A stretch of 64,000 nt of DNA, taken from contig NZ_PNXQ01000005.1 in assembly GCF_005217525.1 (NCBI RefSeq), forward strand, positions 203,821 to 267,820, in the 5' to 3' direction. Position 1 is the first letter of the stretch; every line of letters begins with the position of its first letter. This stretch comes from Paenibacillus terrae. Its GTDB lineage: Bacteria > Bacillota > Bacilli > Paenibacillales > Paenibacillaceae. Below the pieces are notes generated by a model. It worked only from the letters and a program-made list of their open reading frames with translations, ran no database searches and was not told the DNA's origin. This document shows positions 1,181 to 6,398 of the stretch, one piece after another. The translations under genes and the position numbers were made by a program.

Positions 1181-3313
1181 TCATTGACGCTTCACATTCA
1201 CCACCGTTGAAAAGAAAGTAGCCCCCCGCCCCATATCCGACAGTCGGTCAGAGGTTAATACATTGGCACGCTGTCTGCGTCCTTTACCTTCCCACCATAA
1301 CCCTTGGCTAATCACCGTACCAGGCAGCATCAGATCCGTGACTTTGGCTTTCAGTTCATACGTTCCCCGGTCGTTCCATACCGTAACCGGATCACCGTCC
1401 GCGATGTCTCTTGCCTGAGCATCCTCCGGATGAATTTGCAGCAAAGGCTCTCGTTCCAGCCGCTGATGCTTGGGTAAGTTTGCGAACGTGGAATTCAGAA
1501 AATTATGATTCGGTGGCGAAATAAACATCAGCGGGAACCGCTCGTCCGCTTGCGGCCGATGCTCTCCGTCGTATCCTTCGATCAGCGGCACATACGAAGG
1601 CATCGCGGGCAGACCCGCTTGCTTCATCTTTTCCGAATACAGCTCAATCTTGCCCGAAGGCGTAGTCAGACGATCCAGATAGGTAGCCTTCGGCGTCATG
1701 TCCAGTTTGACAAAAGGTGACTTTTTTAAGGCTTCCAAAGTCACACCGTTGAGATAAGGATTCGTCGGGTTATCAAGTGCACCCGCGATCATGTCCTCTT
1801 CACTTTCCGTGAAAGCAGCCTCATCAAAGCCCATGGCTCGTCCGAGCAGGCTAAACAGCTCATAGTTGCTTTTGCTTTCTCCGAGCGGAGCAATGACTGG
1901 CTTCTGCATCTGGACATAGTGATGCCAATAGGATTTGTACAGGTCTGTACCTTCAAAAGAAGACGCAGCAGGCAGGACAATATCCGCATAGCGGGCCGTA
2001 TCGGTGAGGAACAGGTCGTGAACGACCGTGAACAAATCCTCCCGTTCAAACCCCTGCGTCACCCGATCAGCATCGGGTGCTACGACAACCGGATTGCTGC
2101 AATACACGAACAGCGCCTTGATCGGCACGTCCTTCTGCAGCAGCGCTTCGCCGATTTGGTTCATGTTGATCACCCGGGCATCCGGGTTTTTACGCAAATC
2201 AGGACGGGCCAGATTGGCGCCGTTGAATTTGCCGTAAGCGCCGTTGGAGCGTGATGCTCCCCCGCCGTGCTTTAGCCATTGCCCGGTGAGCGCGGGCAAG
2301 CATGTAACCGCGCGTACATTCATGCCGCCATTATCATGATGCTGAAGCCCGTTGCCAATGTTGATATACGCCGCTCGCGCCTGTCCGTACATCTCCGCGA
2401 GACGGATAATATCTGCCTCCGGCACACCTGTAATACGTGAGACGCGCTGCGGGGTATATGCCCTCACATGCTCGCGCAGTTCCTCATGACCGACCGTATA
2501 GCGGCGCAAAAATTCATCGTCCGTCAGCCCTTGCTCGAACAGTACATGCATAACACCCAGCGCAAGCGCGGTATCCGTTCCCGGGTAGAGCGGAATGAAC
2601 CAATCCGCCCATTGCGCTGTCCGGTTGCGGTGGACATCAATGACGATCACCTTGGCACCTTTTTTGCGTGCCTTCTCGGCCAACACCACCTGATGCATAT
2701 TGGTGCTGATGACATTTCCACCCCATACAATAATGAGGTCAGCATCCTCTGTATCCTCTGGACTGGTGCCGCCCTTAAAACCCATGACGGATGCCCAGCC
2801 TTCATTCCCGGCCACACTGCAAATCGTCTGGTCCAGTTGGCTTGAACCCAGCGCATTGAAAAAACGGCGATCCATCCCGTCCACACTCAACACGCCCATA
2901 TTGCCGTAAAAGCTGTAGGGGAGAATAGATTCCGGGCCATCCGTGCAAATCAGTTCCTTGAAGCGGCCAGTAATGGTATCGACTGCCTCCTCCCAGCTAA
3001 TTCGTTCGAACTCCCCTTTCCCCTTGGGGCCTACACGCTTCAACGGATAGAGCAGCCGCTCGGGGTCATACACCCGCTCCGTCATATTGCGAACTTTGTT
3101 GCAAATAGCCCCTTTTGTAATGGGATGATCCGGGTTACCAGTCACCTTGACGATCTTTCCATCTTCCTTGTGAAGCAGGAGCCCGCACGTATCCGGGCAA
3201 TCCAGCGGACATACAGCCGGGAAAATACCGTCCGTACGCTCCGTCATTCGCTGTCCCCTTTGTAAGTCTTGCTGAAGCACGTCCTCAGGAGGCGCGCTGT
3301 TGCTATGATCCAT
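1181..3313 (-). CDS. Molybdopterin oxidoreductase, YoaE-like
   Basis: Large molybdenum-cofactor enzyme of the formate dehydrogenase/DMSO reductase superfamily, about 710 residues. Near the N-terminus are the cysteines of a [4Fe-4S] cluster, CPLDCPDTCG, followed about 28 residues later by the fourth Cys in GAICNK. The N-terminal Fe4S4 domain, central molybdopterin domains and the C-terminal molydopterin dinucleotide-binding domain (IHPEDAQARDIADGDPVTV) are all present, so it is full length. There is no Tat signal, so it is probably cytoplasmic. It resembles Bacillus subtilis YoaE, whose substrate is unknown. The start is placed at the ATG at 3313 because AAAGGAG lies 10 nt before it; an upstream in-frame ATG at 3346 has the ribosome site inside its own coding region. 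Confidence 0.85.
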   Translation of the reverse strand: MDHSNSAPPEDVLQQDLQRGQRMTERTDGIFPAVCPLDCPDTCGLLLHKEDGKIVKVTGNPDHPITKGAICNKVRNMTERVYDPERLLYPLKRVGPKGKGEFERISWEEAVDTITGRFKELICTDGPESILPYSFYGNMGVLSVDGMDRRFFNALGSSQLDQTICSVAGNEGWASVMGFKGGTSPEDTEDADLIIVWGGNVISTNMHQVVLAEKARKKGAKVIVIDVHRNRTAQWADWFIPLYPGTDTALALGVMHVLFEQGLTDDEFLRRYTVGHEELREHVRAYTPQRVSRITGVPEADIIRLAEMYGQARAAYINIGNGLQHHDNGGMNVRAVTCLPALTGQWLKHGGGASRSNGAYGKFNGANLARPDLRKNPDARVINMNQIGEALLQKDVPIKALFVYCSNPVVVAPDADRVTQGFEREDLFTVVHDLFLTDTARYADIVLPAASSFEGTDLYKSYWHHYVQMQKPVIAPLGESKSNYELFSLLGRAMGFDEAAFTESEEDMIAGALDNPTNPYLNGVTLEALKKSPFVKLDMTPKATYLDRLTTPSGKIELYSEKMKQAGLPAMPSYVPLIEGYDGEHRPQADERFPLMFISPPNHNFLNSTFANLPKHQRLEREPLLQIHPEDAQARDIADGDPVTVWNDRGTYELKAKVTDLMLPGTVISQGLWWEGKGRRQRANVLTSDRLSDMGRGATFFSTVVNVKRQ

Positions 3314-3362
3314 GGTGTTGATGCTCCTTTCCGTTACCGTTTCCAAAAATTACACTGTTCTT

Positions 3363-3672: not shown

Positions 3673-4521
3673 TCAGGCATGGTCACTCAACGGAGTTGTT
3701 GCAGTAGACGAGGGGGCCTGAGGTGATTCATTCACAGGATGCACAGCGGAATGAGGCTTTTTCAAATATGCCAACCAGTAAGCTCCAGCTACGAACATGC
3801 TTCCTCCCACCAAATTCCCCAGCCAAACCGGAATGAAGTTCATGACATAATCTGCCCATGAAAAATGACCTGCAAAAATAGCCGCCGGAATTAGAAACAT
3901 ATTGGCTACAACGTGCTGAAATCCGATAGCTACAAAGGCCATCGTCGGGAACCAGATCCCCATAATTTTGCCGCCGATCGAATCCGTGCTATACGCCAAC
4001 CAGACAGCCAGCGCTACCAGCCAGTTACATCCAATACCGGATATAAACGATTGCAAAAAGCTTTCATGCAGCTTGTGTCCCGCCATATCCACCACTTTGT
4101 CCAAATAAGGTCCTGTCTCGGTTAAACCCAGCACATGACCAAAGAAAAAGGCAACAAACAACGCACCCGCAAAATTACTAAGCGTAATAATTGCTAAATT
4201 ACGGAACATCGCCCCGGTCTTGATCCGTCCTGCCCATCTCGCTAAAGGGACTGCCATCATATTACCGGTCAGCAATTCTCCGCCTCCGATCAATACCAAT
4301 ACCAGACCTACAGGGAACACGGCTGCTCCAATAAAAGTAGCAATACTCCCCCATTCTTTGGGCGCGCTTGCGATAACTCGTATATCTAGCAAAAAACCAA
4401 GCGCAATAAATGCACCTGCTAAAAATCCCAATACCACTGCCACAGTCCATGGATTGTTCGCTTTGGCCACTCCTGTTTCCACCGTCTTTTCAGCAATCTG
4501 CCCCGGCTTATAACTTGCCAT
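3673..4521 (-). CDS. Formate/nitrite transporter family channel
   Basis: A 282-residue membrane protein of the FNT family (FocA/NirC). Six transmembrane segments are apparent. Family signatures are visible: GGGELLTGNMM after the second helix and GFQHVVANMF in the fifth helix, which carries the conserved central-pore histidine. Family members form pentameric channels for formate, nitrite or hydrosulfide. Neighbouring redox genes (a molybdopterin oxidoreductase and an NADH oxidase) fit a role in fermentative or micro-oxic metabolism, perhaps formate. AAAGGAG lies 8 nt before the ATG, and a Rex/FNR-type palindrome sits upstream. The exact substrate is not resolvable from sequence. Confidence 0.9.
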   Translation of the reverse strand: MASYKPGQIAEKTVETGVAKANNPWTVAVVLGFLAGAFIALGFLLDIRVIASAPKEWGSIATFIGAAVFPVGLVLVLIGGGELLTGNMMAVPLARWAGRIKTGAMFRNLAIITLSNFAGALFVAFFFGHVLGLTETGPYLDKVVDMAGHKLHESFLQSFISGIGCNWLVALAVWLAYSTDSIGGKIMGIWFPTMAFVAIGFQHVVANMFLIPAAIFAGHFSWADYVMNFIPVWLGNLVGGSMFVAGAYWLAYLKKPHSAVHPVNESPQAPSSTATTPLSDHA

Positions 4522-4594
4522 ATATTCCGCTCCTTTAACATCTTTTTACTACAACATTCTCTCACATATTTTATTTAAAATCAGTGGTTTTGTT

Positions 4595-4610
4595 TGTGAA
4601 AAAAATCACT
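4595..4610 (-). promoter_or_regulatory. Rex/FNR-type palindrome upstream of the FNT channel gene
   Basis: TGTGA-N6-TCACT, one mismatch from the FNR consensus TGTGA-N6-TCACA and also close to the Rex consensus. On the minus strand it overlaps a candidate -35 (TTCACA, 4600-4595) with a -10 (TAAATA, 4577-4572) 17 bp downstream. The centre lies about 38 bp upstream of the expected transcription start, so anaerobic activation by FNR or repression by Rex are both possible. Confidence 0.5.
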
Positions 4611-4695: not shown

Positions 4696-4797
4696 TTAGT
4701 TGTATTCTTCCTTTTCAACTGCTCTTAAGAACCAAATAACTCCACCTAGGCCTCCCAGCGCCACGGCTACAAGAAAAAGGATATAAAACAAATCCAT
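4696..4797 (-). CDS. 33-residue single-pass membrane protein, CcoS-like topology
   Basis: A short frame starting MDLFYILFLVAVALGG and ending LRAVEKEEYN, with AGGGGGT ten nt upstream of the ATG and a strong terminator just after it. It consists of one hydrophobic helix of about 20 residues, an aromatic/basic boundary (IWFLRAVEK) and a short acidic tail. This layout resembles the small cbb3-oxidase assembly factor CcoS, but no cbb3 oxidase genes are in the window and the similarity is only by eye. It lies between the FNT channel and NADH oxidase genes on the same strand. A small membrane protein of unknown function is the safest description. Confidence 0.6.
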   Translation of the reverse strand: MDLFYILFLVAVALGGLGGVIWFLRAVEKEEYN

Positions 4798-4906
4798 AAG
4801 CTACTTACCCCCTAATCCTTATGCTACTTTATATTGTACTATAAGGATTCGTCCATACGTCTCAGATTGTTGACAAACTTATGAACAATGTCACAGACAA
4901 AATGAA

Positions 4907-6268
4907 TTATACGGTAACTGGCTTCCGTTCAGATATCGGCGGCAATGCTTGTAAACCCGCTGCATTTAGGAAATTCCAAGGCTTGTTATAATGCGGCTGG
5001 AAGAAGAAATCCACAAAGGCCAGTTGGTCAATGGTCATATGATTTTGGATCGCCACCGACAGGGTATTAATCGATTGGGTCAAATCTACCTTCGACATAA
5101 TTTGTGCTCCGACAATTCTCCGTGTCTCCTGCTCATATACAACCTTCAGCAGCACCTTTTCCGACGTTGGCATAAATTCAGGGCGGTAGCTGTCCTCAAT
5201 GGTTACAGCCTCTACGGCCATACCTTCGTCCGCTGCTGCCGCTTCCGTCAAACCTGTTCCTGCAATATTATCTTCATAAATTTTAATACCCGAAGTTCCC
5301 TGTGTTCCCATATAGGCAATGGTCGGTTGAACCAAATTGCGTGCCACCAGCGTGCCCATACGAACAGCGTTGGTTGCCAACGGAATATACGCTGTTTGGC
5401 CTGTCGGGTTATAGCGGATTGCACAGCTATCGCCTGCAGCAAATACGTCCGGGCAGCTGCTTTGCATAAAATTGTCCACAATGATCGCGCCGTTAGGCAG
5501 CATGTCCACCTGACCTTTAAGCAGATCCGTTTGAGGACGGAAGCCGATGCAGAGAATAACAAGCTCTGTTTCATATTCTCCTTGGGATGTCACCACTTTA
5601 TTCACCTTACCGTTATTTCCTTCAAAACGGCTCACGGTTTCTCCCAGCACCAGCTTGATGCCATGTTTCTTCAAGGAATCTTCAATTCGGTCTGTATATT
5701 CCGGATCCAAATATTTATTCAAAATACGATCAGCGCTATCAATCAGCGTTACGTTCTTACCATTCATTTGAAAAGCTTCCACCAGCTCAACACCGATATA
5801 TCCGGCTCCAACAACTGTAATATTCTGTACATGCTTGGCTTTCTCAATGATGTCATTGGAATGATTATAGTTTTTGCAGAGCAGAATATGATCAAGCTCA
5901 ATACCTTCCAGCTTCGGAATAATAGGCCACGAGCCCGTAGTTACAATCAATTTATCAAAGGTGTCCGTAAATTCTTCTCCTGTTTGGAGATTGCGTGCTT
6001 GCAGCGTTTTGCCTGCTGTATCGACATTCGTTACCTCATGAAGCATCTTGGTCACGACACCCAGCTCAGCCAGTTCATTCGGGGAAGAATAAAACAATCC
6101 TTGCGGATCTTTGACGACACCACCTACGTACAGTGCAATACCACAGGATAAAAACGAAATATTGTCATTACGCTCGTAAACGGTAATTTCTGCATCTGGA
6201 TAACATTTGGCTGTGTTGACGATGGCTGCCGTACCTGCGTGTGTACATCCGATAACTGCTACTTTCAT
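4907..6268 (-). CDS. nox: Water-forming NADH oxidase
   Basis: A 453-residue FAD/NAD-dependent enzyme of the NADH oxidase / NADH peroxidase / CoA-disulfide reductase family. Visible features are the N-terminal FAD-binding start MKVAVIGCTHAGT, the redox-active cysteine in ISFLSCGIALYVGG, the NAD-binding fold VVGAGYIGVELVE, the second FAD motif DVFAAGDSC, and the dimerisation domain ending FFFQPHYNKPWNFLN. Nox reduces O2 to two H2O with NADH, regenerating NAD+ when oxygen is present. The single active cysteine and C-terminal motif favour the four-electron (water-forming) type. AAGGAGG is 8 nt before the ATG. The promoter carries three redox-type palindromes (see separate entries), consistent with control by the NADH/NAD+ ratio. 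Confidence 0.88.
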   Translation of the reverse strand: MKVAVIGCTHAGTAAIVNTAKCYPDAEITVYERNDNISFLSCGIALYVGGVVKDPQGLFYSSPNELAELGVVTKMLHEVTNVDTAGKTLQARNLQTGEEFTDTFDKLIVTTGSWPIIPKLEGIELDHILLCKNYNHSNDIIEKAKHVQNITVVGAGYIGVELVEAFQMNGKNVTLIDSADRILNKYLDPEYTDRIEDSLKKHGIKLVLGETVSRFEGNNGKVNKVVTSQGEYETELVILCIGFRPQTDLLKGQVDMLPNGAIIVDNFMQSSCPDVFAAGDSCAIRYNPTGQTAYIPLATNAVRMGTLVARNLVQPTIAYMGTQGTSGIKIYEDNIAGTGLTEAAAADEGMAVEAVTIEDSYRPEFMPTSEKVLLKVVYEQETRRIVGAQIMSKVDLTQSINTLSVAIQNHMTIDQLAFVDFFFQPHYNKPWNFLNAAGLQALPPISERKPVTV

Positions 6269-6311: not shown

Positions 6312-6327
6312 TGTGAATAGTTTCACG
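6312..6327 (-). promoter_or_regulatory. Rex/FNR-type site 3, in the nox 5' leader
   Basis: TGTGA-ATAGTT-TCACG. With flanking bases it reads TTGTGAA-N4-TTCACG, very near the Rex consensus TTGTGAA-N4-TTCACAA. It lies about 45 bp upstream of the nox start codon. Confidence 0.6.
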
Positions 6328-6343
6328 TAACCGCGTTGTTGAT

Positions 6344-6359
6344 TGTGATTTATTTCACT
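6344..6359 (-). promoter_or_regulatory. Rex/FNR-type site 2, downstream of the nox -10
   Basis: TGTGA-TTTATT-TCACT, lying about 10-20 bp downstream of the -10 hexamer, over the predicted transcription start region. Confidence 0.6.
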
Positions 6360-6369
6360 TCATGCGCTT

Positions 6370-6398
6370 ATTATAGTGTGATATTTTTCACATTACAA
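6370..6398 (-). promoter_or_regulatory. Promoter of nox
   Basis: On the minus strand TTGTAA (6398-6393) and a perfect TATAAT (6375-6370) are 17 bp apart. The spacer is filled by a TGTGA-N6-TCACA-type palindrome. Confidence 0.75.
6377..6392 (-). promoter_or_regulatory. Rex/FNR-type site 1, in the nox promoter spacer
   Basis: TGTGA-TATTTT-TCACA on the plus strand. It fills all but one base of the gap between the -35 and -10 hexamers. A protein bound there would block RNA polymerase, which fits the NADH-sensing repressor Rex better than the activator FNR. Confidence 0.65.

Follow-up and report, generated by a model that had tools for sequence, protein, structure and literature searches.

The window, a 64,000-nucleotide stretch of the genome of Paenibacillus terrae, contains the minus-strand genes nox and fnt, the predicted promoters of which carry palindromes of the form TGTGA-N6-TCACA (Table 1). 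The closest solved relative of the nox product is the NADH oxidase 5er0 (E = 1.7e-168), and the NCBIfam model NOXase_Strep matches the protein with 487 bits, below the model cut-off of 600; Nox is presumably a water-forming NADH oxidase. Its closest relative with a species name is the Nox of P. terrae, at 98% identity. The start of nox transcription, set some 12 bases past the initial T of the TATAAT hexamer, is predicted near position 6363. In the direction of nox, on the minus strand, the palindromes follow one another in the order A, B, and C. The initial annotation placed them in the promoter spacer, the start region, and the leader of nox, and all three were recovered there (0, 1, and 1 mismatches to TGTGA-N6-TCACA, the pattern against which sites were scored). 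The 17-bp spacer between TTGTAA and TATAAT consists of site A and one additional base, so that the first palindrome indeed fills the gap between the hexamers.

Table 1 Positions of genes, predicted promoter elements, and palindromes at the nox and fnt loci, in coordinates of the window.
Feature	Position	Strand	Description
nox	4907..6268	-	453 aa, ATG at 6268; water-forming NADH oxidase type
-35 hexamer TTGTAA of nox	6393..6398 (read 6398-6393)	-	predicted promoter
-10 hexamer TATAAT of nox	6370..6375 (read 6375-6370)	-	predicted promoter
Putative operator A, TGTGATATTTTTCACA	6377..6392	.	0 mismatches; fills predicted nox promoter spacer, centre ~-21.5
Putative operator B, TGTGATTTATTTCACT	6344..6359	.	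1 mismatch; just past predicted start, centre ~+12
Putative operator C, TGTGAATAGTTTCACG	6312..6327	.	1 mismatch; nox leader, centre ~+44
fnt	3673..4521	-	282 aa, ATG at 4521; formate/nitrite transporter family, PF01226 E 2.4e-78
-10 hexamer TAAAAT of fnt	4568..4573	-	predicted
Fourth site, TGTGAAAAAAATCACT	4595..4610	.	before fnt, ~1.7 kb from site C

Five sites with at most one mismatch occur in the window, every one between positions 4595 and 6392, whereas shuffled windows contain 1.96 such sites on average. Three sites within 100 bp of each other were found in none of 500 shuffled windows, and two in a single one of them. When two mismatches are allowed, the whole window contains 24 sites vs 26.6 expected, which is no enrichment; therefore, the signal lies in the clustering of good sites. 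The whole genome has 156 sites with at most one mismatch, compared with 72 matches to the reversed control pattern. A chance origin of the nox palindromes is rejected by the shuffled windows together with the control patterns in the related genomes described below.

A further site, TATGAACAATGTCACA at positions 4880-4895, has one mismatch and is located just beyond the end of nox, with its centre 366 bp upstream of fnt. The segment between nox and fnt also includes a 33-codon open reading frame (4696-4797, minus strand), which appears hydrophobic by eye and has no Pfam match. It was detected by tblastn (E < 1e-4) in 8 of 80 nox loci, with matches of 82-97% in five loci of the P. polymyxa group and of about 40% in three others.

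Conservation of the palindromes in nox promoters

The 400 bp upstream of nox were compared in 81 promoters, which comprise that of the window and the best 80 of 199 relatives from one scan; many of the 80 are closely related to each other, and hence non-independent. Sites with at most one mismatch number at least one in all 81 promoters, at least two in 80, and at least three in 61. The 81 promoters contain 227 sites in total vs 20 for the reversed control, which never occurs twice in one promoter, and the altered spacers N5, N7, and N8 give 0, 2, and 1 sites, respectively. The sole exception is the promoter from P. hunanensis (L086), which has one site left and lacks a two-site array.

In 80 of the 81 promoters, the 17-bp spacer that separates a TTG from a TATAAT-like hexamer is filled by a site. 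This is the informative count, because site A was chosen by requiring these two elements; among the 80 promoters with a site A, the TTG is present in all and the -10 hexamer is an exact TATAAT in 78. Site B (at most two mismatches) lies downstream of A in all 80, at a pitch of 33 bp in 64 of them. Site C, found at up to two mismatches in 44 of the 80 promoters, is positioned 32 or 35 bp past B in 40 of these. Since one site occupies the spacer of the predicted promoter in 80 of 81 cases and a second lies downstream, the arrangement is that of a repressor.

Rex and Fnr as candidate readers

The genome encodes one Rex, the protein on which the reading put forward in the initial annotation depends. 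It was found as a single match (E = 2.6e-21), scores 288 bits with the model NF003995 (cut-off 126), and resembles the solved Rex 2vt2 with an E value of 1.6e-47. Of the 295 family genomes, 294 encode Rex, and the lone exception is 85% complete; because Rex is nearly universal, a reciprocal comparison based on its loss is impossible. The CRP-family proteins of the genome include two that are Fnr-like (L010 and L011), with a C-terminal cysteine group like that of the Bacillus-type Fnr of B. subtilis. The NCBIfam CRP and Fnr models match both proteins far under their cut-offs. Each of 47 array-bearing genomes that were searched, out of a set of 50, also has an Fnr relative, which counts against a pure Rex reading; co-occurrence was uninformative until genomes lacking a detected Fnr were found.

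The consensus of Gram-positive Fnr is TGTGA-N6-TCACA. Rex of Staphylococcus aureus binds the same sequence, and positions 1 and 7 of its confirmed sites are often mismatched, mostly with lower affinity, according to the cited part of the study (PMC2883068). Since the two motifs overlap and both proteins are encoded in the genome, position alone cannot name the reader. Of the claim in the initial annotation that position favours a repressor such as Rex over FNR, the repressor part is upheld by 80 of 81 promoters; the preference for Rex does not follow, because Fnr could repress from the same place.

The base that follows TGTGA on both strands was used to describe the form of the sites, with A/A being Rex-like and T/T being CRP/FNR-like. 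Site A is A/A in 1, A/T in 37, T/T in 14, and of other form in 28 of 80 promoters. The corresponding numbers are 19, 58, 0, and 3 for site B (80 promoters) and 33, 7, 0, and 4 for site C (44 promoters). Site A is the least Rex-like and site C the most, which counts against a pure Rex reading. Relative to the Rex operator TTGTGAA-N4-TTCACAA, the core and the N6 spacing are present, and the outer and seventh bases agree best in C and most poorly in A. The full operator is absent from this genome when no mismatch is allowed and occurs at four places with one mismatch. With at most two mismatches, there are 34 matches vs 20 for the control, a weak difference that also counts against Rex. Other loci of this genome with near matches were mostly inspected by eye. 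The genome's own cydA carries a perfect TGTGA-N6-TCACA, which is mixed in form. No site with at most one mismatch is present in the 463 bp upstream of the gene that precedes its ndh-like gene, as counted from a start codon that we chose, which likewise counts against a pure Rex reading; one such site falls inside the open reading frame preceding the ndh-like gene. A plasmid search yielded no further evidence.

Class II activators of the CRP/FNR type bind a site centred at -41.5. The initial annotation listed the site before fnt as a fourth site of the Rex type. The site exists; however, the predicted TAAAAT hexamer (offset 29.5) implies a start near 4561, and the site is centred 41.5 bp upstream of it, at the class II position. 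Activation by Fnr therefore explains this site better than a Rex operator does. Of the 80 loci of the relatives, 72 contain fnt in the same orientation as nox, and a site lies within 260 bp upstream of it in 54 of the 72 with at most one mismatch and in 70 with at most two. These fnt promoters contain 31 site-hexamer pairs at offset 29.5, equivalent to -41.5, and 11 at offset 9.5, as in nox. In the genome itself, one pflB site is at offset 29.5 and the nirB site at 28.5. A -10-like hexamer (five of six bases) within 1 bp of that offset also occurs at L029, L032, and L038 among 13 other loci with perfect sites; because the offset recurs at these three loci and the DNA is AT-rich, the -41.5 offset alone is weak evidence. 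In 30 distant loci, each spanning 1.5 kb on either side of nox, tblastn found no fnt; therefore, the fnt site cannot be compared between genomes with and without Fnr. Rex of S. aureus is described as binding upstream of nirC, a formate/nitrite transporter gene, in the cited part of the study (PMC2883068).

Two perfect sites precede pflB (L035 and L036; C16:902685 and 902799 of G000), one of them at -41.5 and the other about 35 bp before the gene. The second is flanked by an inverted repeat, CCGGACT/AGTCCGG, that was seen by eye. Downstream of fnt, the window contains a gene for a 721-aa molybdopterin oxidoreductase (1181-3346, minus strand), whose best NCBIfam relatives belong to the DMSO/selenate reductase and formate dehydrogenase types, all of those shown scoring below their cut-offs.

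Genomes without a detected Fnr relative

Among the 295 genomes of the family, an Fnr relative was detected in 260 (E ≤ 1e-30) and nox in 236 (E ≤ 1e-120). Eighteen genomes, all 99-100% complete, have nox and no detected Fnr relative; a genome was counted as lacking Fnr if none of its scored first-look candidates, nine at the most, matched at E ≤ 1e-30. Nine of the 18 were assigned by their absence from the list of 260, and 15 match-less genomes were unlisted.

The 500 bp upstream of nox were read in these 18 genomes and in 26 hand-chosen Fnr-bearing ones, 18 of which come from the same three genera as the Fnr-less set. At least two sites with at most one mismatch are present in every promoter of both groups, and the number per promoter is 2-3 in the Fnr-less genomes and 2-4 in the Fnr-bearing ones. 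In the Fnr-less set, 36 of 43 sites are perfect. Controls gave few matches: the reversed pattern occurs at 1 site in the Fnr-less and 0 sites in the Fnr-bearing genomes, and the N8 spacer at 3 and 3. A dependence of the nox sites on the presence of Fnr across genomes fails, because the sites are kept in all 18 genomes without detected Fnr. The 43 sites of the Fnr-less genomes comprise 21 A/A, 20 A/T, no T/T, and 2 of other form, and the 74 sites of the Fnr-bearing controls 20, 47, 4, and 3, respectively. The contrast in T/T sites, 0 of 43 vs 4 of 74, is too weak to favour either Rex or Fnr.

Ten of the Fnr-less genomes have the same 29-bp pitch, and in pairwise comparison their bases agree to 38% between the sites, 51% in the flanks, and 97% in the motif, the last value being inflated by how the sites were chosen. 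The low agreement between the sites and in the flanks indicates that the surroundings have diverged. The comparison would carry less weight if each lineage had lost Fnr only recently; the diverged surroundings argue against this, without dating the loss. A promoter with sites near +17.5 is predicted in 12 of the 18 genomes (in one near +19.5 and in one near +18.5). Of these 12, eight have a further site near +46.5, and seven have one near -48.5 to -52.5. For G319 and G078, another promoter with the same score would put the sites at -38.5 and -9.5. In six of the 18 genomes, no promoter was predicted upstream of nox.

Other CRP-type proteins are present in 16 of the 18 genomes. In two genomes, G319 and G220, none of the first-look candidates scored (148 of 148 and 150 of 162, respectively) matches HTH_Crp_2 at E ≤ 1e-8. 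Genome-wide, G319 contains five perfect sites (control 0) and G220 nine (control 1). Four of these 14 sites are inside genes, one is unassigned, and nine precede genes. Perfect sites before nox number one in G319 and two in G220, and the core of the G319 nox site is identical to that of TTGTGAATGTTTTCACAA, a full Rex operator which in G220 precedes a DUF1641 gene and the ndh-like gene after it. Another perfect site of G220 is located before cydA, divergent from a glutathione peroxidase gene, and two are at a DoxX gene, one of them at the very start of the open reading frame as listed. Rex of B. subtilis controls yjlC-ndh and cydABCD. The gene hmp, encoding a flavohaemoglobin, has one perfect site upstream in each of G319 (L240) and G220 (L247), both without a detected CRP/FNR helix-turn-helix, which suggests that it may be a Rex target in the two genomes.

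Control of nox and comparison with known systems

Of the candidate readers, Rex has the strongest support, because all 18 genomes in which no Fnr relative was detected retain the palindromes. The three sites probably form a repressor operator array through which Rex ties nox to the NADH/NAD+ ratio. While NAD+ predominates, dimers of Rex would occupy A within the promoter, B at the start, and C in the leader, possibly in cooperation, and keep RNA polymerase off nox. When oxygen or respiration falls behind, NADH would rise, Rex would be released, and nox would be expressed. Nox would then oxidise NADH with oxygen until the ratio drops, which would close a direct feedback loop.

It is possible, although doubtful, that Rex and Fnr both read the same palindromes and act as an AND gate, so that expression of nox would require both high NADH and oxygen. 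Rex would free nox at high NADH, and Fnr would block it in the absence of oxygen, a condition in which the same motif, placed at -41.5, would turn fnt on. The sites would be graded, A being closer to the Fnr form and C to the Rex form. Repression by Fnr alone, in which the anaerobic Fe-S form binds A, B, and C while activating fnt, is unlikely. It would be in keeping with the two Fnr-like proteins with their C-terminal cysteines, with the class II position of the fnt site and of one pflB site, which the nirB site nearly shares (28.5), and with the lean of site A towards the CRP/FNR form (T/T in 14 and A/T in 37 of 80 promoters). However, two observations speak against this reading: the sites are retained in all 18 genomes that have nox but no detected Fnr relative, including G319 and G220 with no HTH_Crp_2 match at all at E ≤ 1e-8, and promoters have similar numbers of sites whether Fnr is undetected (2-3) or present (2-4 in 26 genomes).

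The CRP-type proteins left in 16 of the 18 Fnr-less genomes might include a third regulator with the motif TGTGA-N6-TCACA, such as an ArcR-like CRP protein, that reads the array. A recognition helix of the form RE...R is linked to TGTGA by rule; among 30 loci of such proteins, the helix was script-readable in 20 and has this form in three (L218, L226, and L229). We regard a third regulator as quite improbable, because G319 and G220 keep the sites without an HTH_Crp_2 match (E ≤ 1e-8), and several genes next to other perfect sites in these genomes (cydA and ndh-like) are of the kind that Rex controls in B. subtilis. Activation of nox from a single site by Fnr or another CRP-family protein, for which the shared motif and the nearby sites at -41.5 might speak, is scarcely credible and was rejected on geometry: none of A, B, and C is at a class II (-41.5) position. 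The offset of 29.5 is not among the most frequent -10 offsets listed for the three sites (up to eight per site), and the recurrent offset of A is 9.5 in 80 of 80 promoters, A having been chosen with an adjacent -10 hexamer. In the distant genomes, where a promoter is predicted, the sites are mostly near +17.5, +46.5, and -48.5 to -52.5.

Nox is a short circuit for NADH. The array is present in some form on all 125 Paenibacillaceae promoters that were read (81 + 18 + 26), and its retention also in genomes without detected Fnr points to a direct control of nox by the NADH/NAD+ ratio. If Fnr is an additional reader, nox would respond to NADH and oxygen together. Because Rex and Fnr of these bacteria share a motif, sites can be mis-assigned when a scan relies on the motif alone. 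In this case, the comparison of Fnr-bearing with Fnr-less genomes, together with the position of a site relative to the -10 hexamer, helps to separate Rex from Fnr, and the approach could be extended to other members of the regulon. The control of nox may also have a bearing on oxygen removal in nitrogen-fixing Paenibacillus. Under N2-fixing, low-oxygen conditions, Paenibacillus sp. WLY78 is reported to upregulate cydABCD and three ndh genes, and hcaD, labelled an NAD(FAD)-dependent dehydrogenase, is 116-fold up in the N2-fixing state (cited part of PMC4774088). These expression data fit the Rex reading loosely, with hcaD being only a candidate equivalent of nox.

In the literature searched, no report was found that Rex or Fnr controls nox of Paenibacillus. 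The nox transcript of a Streptococcus mutans rex mutant is given as 2.67-fold down, not up (cited part of PMC3441419), which counts against Rex as a repressor of nox. The nox palindromes share their core, fixed spacing, and AT-rich centre with the Rex operators of S. aureus, B. subtilis, and streptococci (ROP, TTGTGAA-N4-TTCACAA), which are likewise positioned over promoters and control NADH-reoxidising genes. By contrast, the outer base and the base after TGTGA of the nox sites, above all of A, are often off the Rex consensus, nox has three sites at a conserved pitch on one promoter, and the genome contains no full consensus operator. The core is also that of Gram-positive Fnr sites, whose activator position of -41.5 is occupied by the fnt site and one pflB site; unlike such activator sites, those of nox are in the spacer and downstream of it, and are kept without a detected Fnr. 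Overlapping Rex and Fnr motifs in one promoter are described for ldhA of Bacillus cereus, where the Rex motif overlaps those of ResD and Fnr (cited part of PMC4162614); however, this is a different gene, and in P. terrae three sites are arrayed on the nox promoter. Elsewhere, nox has already been predicted to belong to the Rex regulons of Lactobacillaceae (cited part of PMC4972977). The array described here is ordinary in type and unusual only in its strict conservation.
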